A program made the position numbers and the translations under genes. Under the pieces are notes generated by a model. That model saw only the letters and a list, made by a program, of their open reading frames with translations. It was not told the DNA's origin and searched no databases. This document shows, one piece after another, positions 17,901 to 20,892 of a stretch of 64,000 nt of DNA; position 1 is the first letter of the stretch, and each line of letters begins with the position of its first letter. The DNA is from an uncultured Cryomorphaceae bacterium. GTDB taxonomy: Bacteria; Bacteroidota; Bacteroidia; Flavobacteriales; Schleiferiaceae. The stretch lies in contig CAJWFD010000002.1 in the NCBI GenBank assembly GCA_913031435.1, forward strand, positions 1 through 64,000. The letters are read 5' to 3'.

Positions 17901-17919
17901 AGTCCAATCGAATGTTTGT

Positions 17920-17927
17920 CAAAGATA
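17920..17927 (-). promoter_or_regulatory. -7 promoter element for purT
   Basis: Minus-strand TATCTTTG is an exact TAnnTTTG match 20 nt before the purT ATG, within the 44-nt divergent gap shared with the metal operon. No clear -33 element is seen. On the plus strand TAATTTCG (17933-17940) is one base off consensus but only 4 nt before the next ATG. Confidence 0.5.
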
Positions 17928-17944
17928 TTCGTTAATTTCGCTTC

Positions 17945-18361
17945 ATGCGCAAAGTACTGAGCTTCATCTTCACTATAATGTACGCTACTATGAGTAGTGG
18001 CGCTCCTTCGTTGTTACATTACTGCGCGCATGAAGAAGCATTACATCTATCTGTGGGAGAGCATGATCACCAAGAAGTGCCCTGTTGTAGCGACGTAATG
18101 AATATTGAAGGGTGCGATTCTCAAGAAAAGGCATTGCATCACACTCCCGAAAATGATGATTGTTGCGCAAATACACATATAGATTTAGATTTTTCAGAAC
18201 AAGAATCTAAGCTGGTCCATAAAACAGTTTCTGCACTGTCTTCGGTACTCATTACAGTACATCACCACTCTTTAGCTCCATTTCGCCCTGCGACTAGGTT
18301 TTTACAAATAAACGGACCACCGCTCTTTATCCTGTTCCATAGGTTGACGTTGTATGACTGA
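17945..18361 (+). CDS. HYC_CC_PP family secreted Cys/His-rich protein
   Basis: A 138-residue secreted protein with an N-terminal signal segment (residues 1-20). The family-naming motifs are present: His-Tyr-Cys at 25-27, Cys-Cys at 47-48 and again at 73-74, a lone Cys57, and Pro-Pro at 125-126. Many His, Asp and Glu residues lie between them. Such clusters suggest binding of a soft metal such as copper in the periplasm. In Bacteroidota these proteins commonly sit next to HMA-domain and TonB-receptor genes, as here. It is the first gene of the three-gene metal operon. The biochemical role has not been shown to my knowledge. Confidence 0.8.
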   Translation: MRKVLSFIFTIMYATMSSGAPSLLHYCAHEEALHLSVGEHDHQEVPCCSDVMNIEGCDSQEKALHHTPENDDCCANTHIDLDFSEQESKLVHKTVSALSSVLITVHHHSLAPFRPATRFLQINGPPLFILFHRLTLYD

Positions 18362-18413
18362 TTTAGATCAATAGTATCGTTCTAAATTTTTCTAACAAAA
18401 AAAATTAATCATT

Positions 18414-18839
18414 ATGAAACTTAAAACAATTTTGGCAGCTGCCATCCTCTTTCTTTCCATTCCATCTTTTGGTCAATCAAACATCACAGAAACCACGCTA
18501 GAAGTGGACGGACTTTGTGGGATGTGTAAAAAACGTATCGAAAACGCTGCGTACATTCAAGGGGTTAAAAAAGTAAATTGGGATTTATCAACGCACGAAT
18601 TAGCGATTACTTACCGCAATGACAAGGTAAACGAACAAGGAATCATTGCTGCAATTAATAGCGCAGGCCATGACGTCAAAGACCATATAGCTACGGATGA
18701 GCAGTATGCCACTGTTCACGGATGCTGCACCTACCGTGATGCTGAAATGCGAAAATCTCATGGACTAGATGACGCATTGTGTAAGCCGAATGAAACGCAT
18801 GAGGAGCACCACGCACACGGTGGCAAGGACAAACATTAA
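18414..18839 (+). CDS. Periplasmic heavy-metal-associated (HMA) domain protein
   Basis: Metal-binding protein of the MerP/CopZ fold with a signal peptide (cleavage after about residue 20, SFGQS). The metal site is Cys35-Gly-Met-Cys38 in VDGLCGMCKKRIENAA, matching the GxCxxC loop. The beta-alpha-beta core ends near residue 90. After it come HGCCTYRD, another Cys, and a His-rich tail (ETHEEHHAHGGKDKH), all possible extra ligands. It probably carries copper or a similar ion between the outer-membrane receptor and another partner. A TAAATTTT box 20-35 nt upstream is one base from a -7 element. The stop codon overlaps the next start (TAATG), so it is coupled to the receptor gene. Confidence 0.88.
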   Translation: MKLKTILAAAILFLSIPSFGQSNITETTLEVDGLCGMCKKRIENAAYIQGVKKVNWDLSTHELAITYRNDKVNEQGIIAAINSAGHDVKDHIATDEQYATVHGCCTYRDAEMRKSHGLDDALCKPNETHEEHHAHGGKDKH

Positions 18840-20881
18840 TGAGGTCTTTTTTAATGATTTTAGCCGTCGCCTTTGGGTGTACGGTCAATACTGCTTTGGG
18901 ACAATCCGACAGCTCTTCCATACAGCTTTTCGAAACCCTAGATCAAGTAAATATCGGTAGTGATCCAGGGATTAGCTTGTCTAAAAAAGCGATCATCACT
19001 CAAGAATTGATTTCGGAAGTAGAGCTCCGTAAAGCTGCTTGTTGTGACCTGAGCGAAAGTTTCGAGACCAATGCATCCATTTCAGCATCATTCACTGATG
19101 CCGTTACAGGAACACGTCAAATCAGGCTGCTAGGACTAGAAGGGCCTTATGCCCTATACACAAAGGGTAATCTCACGACCATGGGTGGACTTGCTTCAGT
19201 GATGGGACTGGGATTCATTCCCGGCGCATGGATACAAAGCATACAACTGACTAAAGGACCGGGAAGTGTAGTTAATGGTGCTGGAGCCATAAGTGGCCAA
19301 ATCAATTACGAATTGCGACCGAGCTTTACCGAACAAATAGGACATGTCAATTTATTTGCAGGACCTGGTAGGTTTGAGCAAAACCTGATCTACACCTGGC
19401 ATCAGAGTAAAAAATGGTCCTCAAATATTATGGTTCATGGTCGCCAGCAACTCTTCCGCTGGGATGGAAATAAGGATGGATACCTGGATACGCCTTTGTC
19501 TAGACATTTTTTCGTTCAAAATGCTTGGAAATTCAATGGTAAAAATAGTGAAGGTCAATTAGGTATAAAATTCAGTTCTGCCGATAACATTGGGGGTAGC
19601 ACGCTCTATGGTAAGGAAACCTTAGCACCTATTTGGAGTCATGAACTTCAAACAGACCGTTATGAACTCTGGGCGAAACGAGGCTATTTCCTAAAGGGTG
19701 GTATCAATAGAAGTATAGGTACTCAGTTTTCAGCAAATTACCAAGATCTCGATAGTTATTTTGGAGAACGATTGTTCACAGCGAAAGAGTTAAGAACCTA
19801 TGGAAATCTTATTTTTCAAGACAACATTATAGATACTCGTCGAAGTATTAAAGTTGGTGCCGATTTCAACCTTCACAATGTTGAACAAGAGATGTGGGGT
19901 TCTAATGGTGATTACGACGCCTCTACCTTCGGTATATATGGTGAGTATAGCTATGTAGCTAGTCCTGACGGAGAGGGATTGAGTATGATTTTAGGCCAGC
20001 GGTTAGATCACCTAAACATTACCGATAATGTCGATAAGTTCTTCTATGTTCCACGACTTCACATAAAATACAATAGTGGAGCTTGGTCCTTACGTTCTCA
20101 AGCAAGCCGTTCTTACCGCTACACAACACTCGGTGCTGAATACATGGGATACATGGCTAATAATCGTGTCTTTAACCTCAGTAGTGGTTCAGCTCCAGCG
20201 GTGGAAAGCGCATGGACATTAGGGACATCCGGTGCGTTTACGAAAGACATCGCATTTAAAGAGCTGCAAATAACTGGAGATGTGTTTTTAACGAAATTCG
20301 ATCGCAAGATGACACTTGACCTTGACCAAGACACTGAAACTGCTTTGTTCTACAACAGAAGTTGGACGATGAATGAATGGGAAGATCAACCTTATTCACT
20401 GTCAGCACAGTTTGGAGGACAATATGAACTTCTGCACAGAACACTCTTTAAATTCGCATATCGGTATCAGAAAGTTACGCAGCTTAATCTCACGGCGTTT
20501 AACCAGGGAATAGACAACGAGCTCGAGGAAGTAATTCTAAATGTCCCTCACCTGCTCTATGGCGGAATAAGCTACACTGGAACAAAAGGGCTGGGTATTG
20601 AATTAAACGCGACCTACAATTCATCTCAACGCCTACCAAATGTTGGTTATGATGATCGTAGCCCAGCATTCACTATGCTCGGCGGGCAAGTAAGTAAAGA
20701 GTTCAGGAGGCGCGGGCAAGTTTATCTAGGACTTCAAAACGCTTTGAATGTTCGCCAACTCAATCCTATCCTGGGTGGCGACTTGCCATTCGAAGATCGA
20801 TTTGATGCATCAGTAGTATGGGGCCCCATCATGGGAAGACAGGTCTATATGGGCTGGAGATACGATTTAAGAAAACCTTAG
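18839..20881 (+). CDS. TonB-dependent outer-membrane receptor, heavy-metal type, short N-terminus
   Basis: 22-stranded outer-membrane transporter with a plug, 680 aa. A signal peptide (about residues 1-22) is followed by only ~35 residues before the plug (SEVELRKAACCDLSESFETN, GTRQIRLLGLEGPY, IQLTKGPGSVVNGAGAISG). Most Bacteroidota receptors of this group have a carboxypeptidase-regulatory-like domain of ~90 residues at this point; none is visible here. The ACCDLSESFE plug signature is typical of receptors adjacent to HMA/HYC_CC_PP genes. The C-terminus GRQVYMGWRYDLRKP lacks the usual terminal Phe. It starts within the upstream stop and ends in a pair of terminators. Probable cargo: copper or another transition metal (inference from neighbours). 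Confidence 0.9.
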   Translation: MRSFLMILAVAFGCTVNTALGQSDSSSIQLFETLDQVNIGSDPGISLSKKAIITQELISEVELRKAACCDLSESFETNASISASFTDAVTGTRQIRLLGLEGPYALYTKGNLTTMGGLASVMGLGFIPGAWIQSIQLTKGPGSVVNGAGAISGQINYELRPSFTEQIGHVNLFAGPGRFEQNLIYTWHQSKKWSSNIMVHGRQQLFRWDGNKDGYLDTPLSRHFFVQNAWKFNGKNSEGQLGIKFSSADNIGGSTLYGKETLAPIWSHELQTDRYELWAKRGYFLKGGINRSIGTQFSANYQDLDSYFGERLFTAKELRTYGNLIFQDNIIDTRRSIKVGADFNLHNVEQEMWGSNGDYDASTFGIYGEYSYVASPDGEGLSMILGQRLDHLNITDNVDKFFYVPRLHIKYNSGAWSLRSQASRSYRYTTLGAEYMGYMANNRVFNLSSGSAPAVESAWTLGTSGAFTKDIAFKELQITGDVFLTKFDRKMTLDLDQDTETALFYNRSWTMNEWEDQPYSLSAQFGGQYELLHRTLFKFAYRYQKVTQLNLTAFNQGIDNELEEVILNVPHLLYGGISYTGTKGLGIELNATYNSSQRLPNVGYDDRSPAFTMLGGQVSKEFRRRGQVYLGLQNALNVRQLNPILGGDLPFEDRFDASVVWGPIMGRQVYMGWRYDLRKP

Positions 20882-20892
20882 CGAGGTTTTTT
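20872..20892 (+). terminator. Hairpin overlapping the stop codon of the TonB receptor gene
   Basis: AAAACCT (20872-20878) pairs with AGGTTTT (20884-20890) with the TAG stop in the loop, followed by T's. It is the first of two tandem terminators for this operon. Confidence 0.5.

Follow-up and report, generated by a model that had tools for sequence, protein, structure and literature searches.

The window, the whole stretch of 64,000 nucleotides analysed here, carries a three-gene cassette that probably constitutes an outer-membrane metal import module, most likely for copper or a copper chelate, with an exported HMA protein working at the periplasmic face of a TonB-dependent receptor. The receptor lacks the N-terminal CarbopepD domain of its long-form relatives. 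This absence is a lineage-wide and recurrent loss and not a defect mended by the histidine tail of the HMA protein.

Cassette layout and receptor architecture

The open reading frame listing of the window contains three adjoining frames on the plus strand, coding for an HYC-like protein, an HMA protein and the receptor. They are given here with two features inside the receptor gene:

17945..18361, plus strand: HYC_CC_PP-like small exported Cys/His-rich protein of 138 aa, divergent (open reading frame)
18414..18839, plus strand: exported HMA protein of 141 aa (Pfam HMA match)
18839..20881, plus strand: TonB-dependent receptor of 680 aa, CC-plug type, without N-terminal CarbopepD (NTE) (Plug match, AF2, Foldseek, VIA-align)
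18929..18967, plus strand: TonB-box-region segment FETLDQVNIGSDP, receptor residues 31-43, aligned with LxEVxV of the long forms
19040..19045, plus strand: plug Cys68-Cys69, conserved in the family (alignment)

The earlier note described all three genes as translationally linked. This fits the HMA and receptor genes only, whose stop and start share one nucleotide (TAATG) and which lie -1 to +6 nt apart at the 16 genus loci checked. The HYC-like frame ends 52 nt upstream of the HMA start, such that coupling looks likely for the HMA protein and the receptor only. By eye, the neighbours of the cassette resemble a PurT-type gene and a PEP-carboxylase gene. A promoter and terminator scan of the window returned fewer sites than were obtained in shuffles.

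The receptor gave no Pfam match to CarbopepD, and the N-terminal PF13715 domain that characterizes SusC/NTE-type receptors was detected neither with Pfam nor with a profile built from the N-terminal domain of long-form relatives. The open frame reaches just 12 codons upstream of the ATG (692 versus 680 aa). Applied to the window frames of at least 50 codons, the domain profile found nothing at E 0.01, and a search of all six frames in 17901-19060, run at maximum sensitivity, was likewise without a significant hit (best E 0.84). An overlooked upstream frame coding for the missing domain, which the earlier note had raised against its own reading, is ruled out by this search of the window frames, and the receptor is genuinely without its N-terminal accessory domain.

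In the alignment with long forms, the stretch absent from the window receptor falls between the signal peptide (approximately residues 1-22, by eye) and the LxEVxV TonB-box region, where FETLDQVNIGSDP may act as the TonB box. In the AF2 model, which has a mean pLDDT of 88.9 with residues 1-34 below 50, the first predicted strand of the fold begins at residue 45. The Plug match remained just under the Pfam cut-off (1.8e-4, 22.4 versus 23.9 bits), and the NCBIfam library, which includes a copper-receptor model, gave no match to the receptor at all. Taken together, the sub-threshold Plug match, the AF2 model and the structure matches identify a TonB-dependent receptor with plug and outer-membrane barrel. 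As modelled, the short receptor has a full plug and barrel and retains the TonB-box region; the absence leaves the classical layout of signal peptide, TonB box, plug and barrel. The plug cysteine pair was found in 169 of 169 aligned rows, which had been picked by a pattern that itself includes CC. Two loci outside this pattern (L035 and L041) likewise have the pair, as PCC in place of ACC.

The first gene product had been named an HYC_CC_PP protein. It has the HYC, CC and PP features and adjoins the same receptor type as HYC_CC_PP members, but neither Pfam nor NCBIfam, including its HYC_CC_PP model NF047658, matched the window protein. Among 12 genus members one matches NF047658 at 7.8e-5. Profile alignment of these 12 with 16 HYC_CC_PP-type neighbours (hhalign) gave a probability of 96.5 and an E-value of 8.9e-10 over 73 columns, a similarity to positional homologues that covers the N-terminal half only. 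By features and profile the protein thus looks like a divergent HYC_CC_PP relative, while the assignment to the model itself does not hold.

For comparison we used 175 receptor loci with a plug anchor, of which 171 are distinct, four being repeats of the same record (L089, L090, L091, L168). Excluded beforehand were the window itself (L001), three fragments (L027-L029), another receptor (L030) and L177; seven further loci, L035 and L041 among them, either did not show the anchor pattern or did not include this part of the gene. The sample follows likeness to the window. Its 80 out-of-family loci from genome contigs are the best 80 of at least 580 relatives ranked by this likeness, and its 19 order-level loci were chosen by hand, in 11 cases for a late-starting match to a long-form query. 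Since the sample is not random, the counts below are not frequencies in nature.

Candidate substrates and roles of the cassette

Copper is suggested by the CopZ-type scores of the HMA protein (best NCBIfam match 5.9e-11, below the cut-off of that model), by the thiol motifs and by an MbnH-like gene upstream in g5 and g17. In these two groups a di-haem MbnH-like gene lies upstream of the HMA gene, at the place where the window genus has the HYC-like gene. We saw this arrangement by eye at 18 loci (L062-L064, L066, L067, L069, L072-L083). In the two loci tested the MbnH-like protein scored above the Pfam cut-off for CCP_MauG and below that of NCBIfam; an MbnP-like gene, tested in L069 only, was above the Pfam MbnP cut-off and again below the NCBIfam one. 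According to the accessible part of a 2013 paper, no data at that time tied close MbnP homologues to copper (PMC3621798). Elsewhere, the genome of the window itself contains an MbnP match, after which comes a gene of the di-haem peroxidase type (L204, 1405-3155).

The operon could instead import another substrate, such as zinc or an iron or other metallophore, with the HMA and HYC-like proteins being general thiol metal-binding partners. We give this reading a limited but real chance. The sequence profile search with the receptor finds Cir/FepA-type siderophore receptors, and in Foldseek and VIA-align iron, cobalamin, haem, zinc and copper transporters match about equally. Siderophore and cobalamin receptors take the top VIA-align rows (Z 29.8-36.3, 498-580 residues aligned and rmsd 2.8-3.9 over the rows shown), copper receptors are not ranked above others there, and the first ten Foldseek rows include both ZnuD and OprC. 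A PDB search with the receptor alone gave nothing useful. In addition, the genus lacks the His residues at 302 and 392 that are present in most other Bacteroidota rows of the alignment; its own gains are His at 223, 268 and 533 and Met at 115 and 436. Such differences from most of the family make a changed ligand or substrate possible. Against a non-copper substrate stand the HMA protein, which scores best, though below cut-off, with CopZ-type models, and the MbnP/MbnH-like partners in g5 and g17.

Known copper transporters offer partial likenesses. OprC of Pseudomonas aeruginosa shares the TonB-dependent transporter fold (Foldseek TM ~0.7, 14-16% identity), but its copper motif, given as CxxxM-HxM in the accessible text of PMC11213822, is absent: the 680-aa receptor contains no CxxxM and no HxM. 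CrtA/BfrG of Bordetella, a copper TonB-dependent transporter reported as a chelated-copper importer (PMC12914433), resembles the present case by description; the terms 'HMA' and 'MbnP' do not appear in the main text of that paper as accessible. In SusC-type receptors with an NTE (PF13715), e.g. Bt1763, the same kind of domain precedes the TonB box as in our long-form relatives, according to the accessible part of PMC7782687. The window receptor differs in having no NTE, and its barrel is Cir/FepA-like by sequence profile. In a literature search on the receptor motif, HYC_CC_PP and HMA-TonB combinations, whose coverage stopped short of most subscription journals and all bioRxiv preprints, we recognised no paper describing the receptor family.

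A role in copper defence or sensing, in which the HYC-like and HMA proteins bind excess periplasmic metal and the receptor serves as a sensor or otherwise, appears unlikely. Exported HMA and Cys/His-rich proteins are also found in resistance loci, which counts for such a role, as do the weak matches of three of the 12 HYC members to a model for CzcI-type efflux proteins (best 4.8e-4). However, none of the genes directly next to the window operon codes for an efflux pump, an oxidase or a regulator, and the receptor has no Pfam match to the STN signalling domain.

Distribution and repeated loss of the CarbopepD domain

The receptor is present in all 25 genus genomes, with an N-terminus that is readable and short in each of them. 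In one assembly (G004) it is spread over two frames (L025, L028). Of 88 family genomes searched 86 give a match, some of these matches being other receptors. Loci with a plug anchor were short in 22 of 22 cases in g5 and g17 and long in 29 of 29 cases in the family outside g1, g5 and g17. Outside the family, short forms made up 10 of the best 80 of at least 580 relatives, seven of the ten being titled Flavobacterium.

Among the 171 distinct receptors 97 carry CarbopepD alone and 57 neither CarbopepD nor a fused HMA domain; a fused HMA domain (one or two modules) without CarbopepD occurs in 11 and both together in six. In a set of 23 aligned receptors CarbopepD_reg_2 was matched in 11, the number of long forms given. 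That family members normally carry the domain is therefore true for 103 of the 171 sampled receptors and untrue for 68. A lack of the domain in all orthologues, which would have spoken against the earlier note, is found at the level of the genus (25 of 25) but not at that of the family. The main point of a missing domain is right, and its oddity is weakened by the genus-wide and repeated loss.

On a 70-row tree L031, a long form, forms a group with the genus (100/100), and g5 and g17 are placed elsewhere. A single short-form clade in the family is rejected by this tree and by the AU test (p 0.0002). Caution is due here, as stems are long (that of the genus measures 1.58); the family tree has long branches, and the AU test shares this weakness. 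From these data the domain is reconstructed to have been lost at least twice within the family. A 133-row tree, made with a quick method after 37 names had been listed beforehand for removal as near copies, implies at least six changes of the CarbopepD state.

Genome streamlining as a sufficient cause is weakened by small f10 genomes with long forms and by the short-form Flavobacterium. Genomes of g1, g5 and g17 measure 1.3-2.5 Mb and those of f10 1.3-2.0 Mb; the f10 genomes among the matches listed gave long-form-like hits, and CarbopepD is present in the three that were read (L183, L185, L186). Nor is the loss genome-wide, as 12 PF13715 matches above cut-off are present elsewhere in the window genome. 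When this kind of domain was deleted from the SusC protein Bt1763, growth on levan was undetectable after 24 h, as reported in the accessible part of PMC7782687. Loss of CarbopepD is thus not obviously harmless and its repeated natural occurrence is noteworthy, Bt1763 being one receptor of another type.

The HMA partner and the receptor N-terminus

The HMA protein consists of a signal peptide (by eye), an HMA domain with GLCGMC, an HGCCTYRD motif and a His-rich tail. Its match to Pfam HMA (PF00403; 1.5e-6, 28.9 bits versus a cut-off of 24.8) and its CxxC place it among candidate HMA metallochaperones with predicted metal binding. An HMA gene lies at most 2.6 kb from the receptor in 144 of 175 loci (141 of 171 distinct). 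In 17 receptors the HMA domain is fused, such that it is neighbouring or fused in 158 of the 171. Neither was found at 14 of 175 loci (13 of 171 distinct); five (four) of these had only 0-35 nt of upstream sequence available, and at the nine loci with upstream sequence no nearby HMA gene was found. With three HMA matches in the whole window genome, adjacency by chance appears unlikely. A second HMA protein of this genome (L201) adjoins a gene that by eye resembles haem A synthase (CtaA), which suggests a link to oxidase assembly; at L203 no closed open reading frame of 150 aa was listed.

All 17 fusions place the HMA domain at the periplasmic N-terminus of the receptor, and of all the evidence they speak most strongly for an HMA protein that acts at the periplasmic receptor face. 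The proposal that it works with the receptor is well supported by these fusions and by the adjacency counts. HMA and CarbopepD occur together in L094, L101, L106, L110, L118 and L181. The HMA-only fusions (L169-L176, L178, L187, L188) come in 11 of 11 cases from family f5, possibly Weeksellaceae; here the HMA modules occupy the position of CarbopepD in other receptors and are followed by His-bearing linkers with 2-7 His between the last CC and the plug anchor. Among the matches listed, 72 f5 rows (counted by eye) begin at query residue 89 or later and all other rows at 34 or earlier. These late starts would fit a replaced N-terminus, as read in 11 f5 loci. In eight of nine fusions tested the Pfam HMA match was found along with the barrel, mostly below cut-off: L169 and L171 were clearly above it, L106 was at it, and L110 gave no match at E 0.01. 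Upstream of the fused receptor at L176 lies a further HMA-like frame. Searching plasmids with a full-length fused receptor returned 16 records, all of which covered less than 80% of the query.

According to the earlier note, the extra cysteines and the His-rich tail of the HMA protein could replace the function of the lost domain or pass metal on to the plug. A tail with at least four His after the CC motif, which the window protein has by eye, was counted in 11 of 24 distinct short-form genus loci (window not included) versus one of 80 distinct long-form loci; it is absent from the 13 other genus loci and from 30 of 30 other short-form loci. Six HMA hits without the CC motif were left out of this count. 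The counts reject the tail as a general correlate of domain loss; judged from these sequences, it characterizes some members of the genus and is not a counterpart of the loss. The extra cysteines fare no better, since HMA proteins with HxCC-type motifs occur across the family loci, next to long as well as short receptors. Six of the 17 fusions keep CarbopepD. Functional replacement of CarbopepD by the His-tailed HMA protein, for which the tail-bearing genus loci and the f5 modules and linkers at the CarbopepD position speak, is thus very improbable given the tail-less short-form loci, the fusions with both domains and the Flavobacterium short forms L156 and L140, which retain a plain HMA gene downstream.

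For the favoured metal import module we envisage that the receptor, as a TonB-dependent transporter, would take its substrate through the barrel. On the periplasmic side, the metal would be taken over by the plug Cys-Cys pair and by the exported HMA protein, which has CxxC and CC motifs; the HYC-like Cys/His-rich protein would be an accessory. The identity of the metal, the direction of transport and any passing of metal to or from the plug, including a hand-over from the plug cysteines to the HMA protein, are what we infer from the combined evidence.

More tentatively, this Bacteroidota receptor family may couple metal import to a dedicated periplasmic metallochaperone, with the metal passing from the plug Cys-Cys pair to HMA and the receptor N-terminus being a swappable docking site. 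If so, the HMA protein would be separate and probably co-translated in the genus and, in other lineages, joined covalently to the receptor as an N-terminal module, and the site would accept CarbopepD, nothing, HMA, HMA-HMA or HMA with CarbopepD. The function of the CarbopepD-type N-terminal extension is called unknown in the accessible part of PMC7782687. Natural variants, in which the extension was repeatedly lost or a metal-binding domain has been joined to the receptor at its position, allow its role to be tested, and they also bear on what takes the metal up once a TonB-dependent receptor opens.
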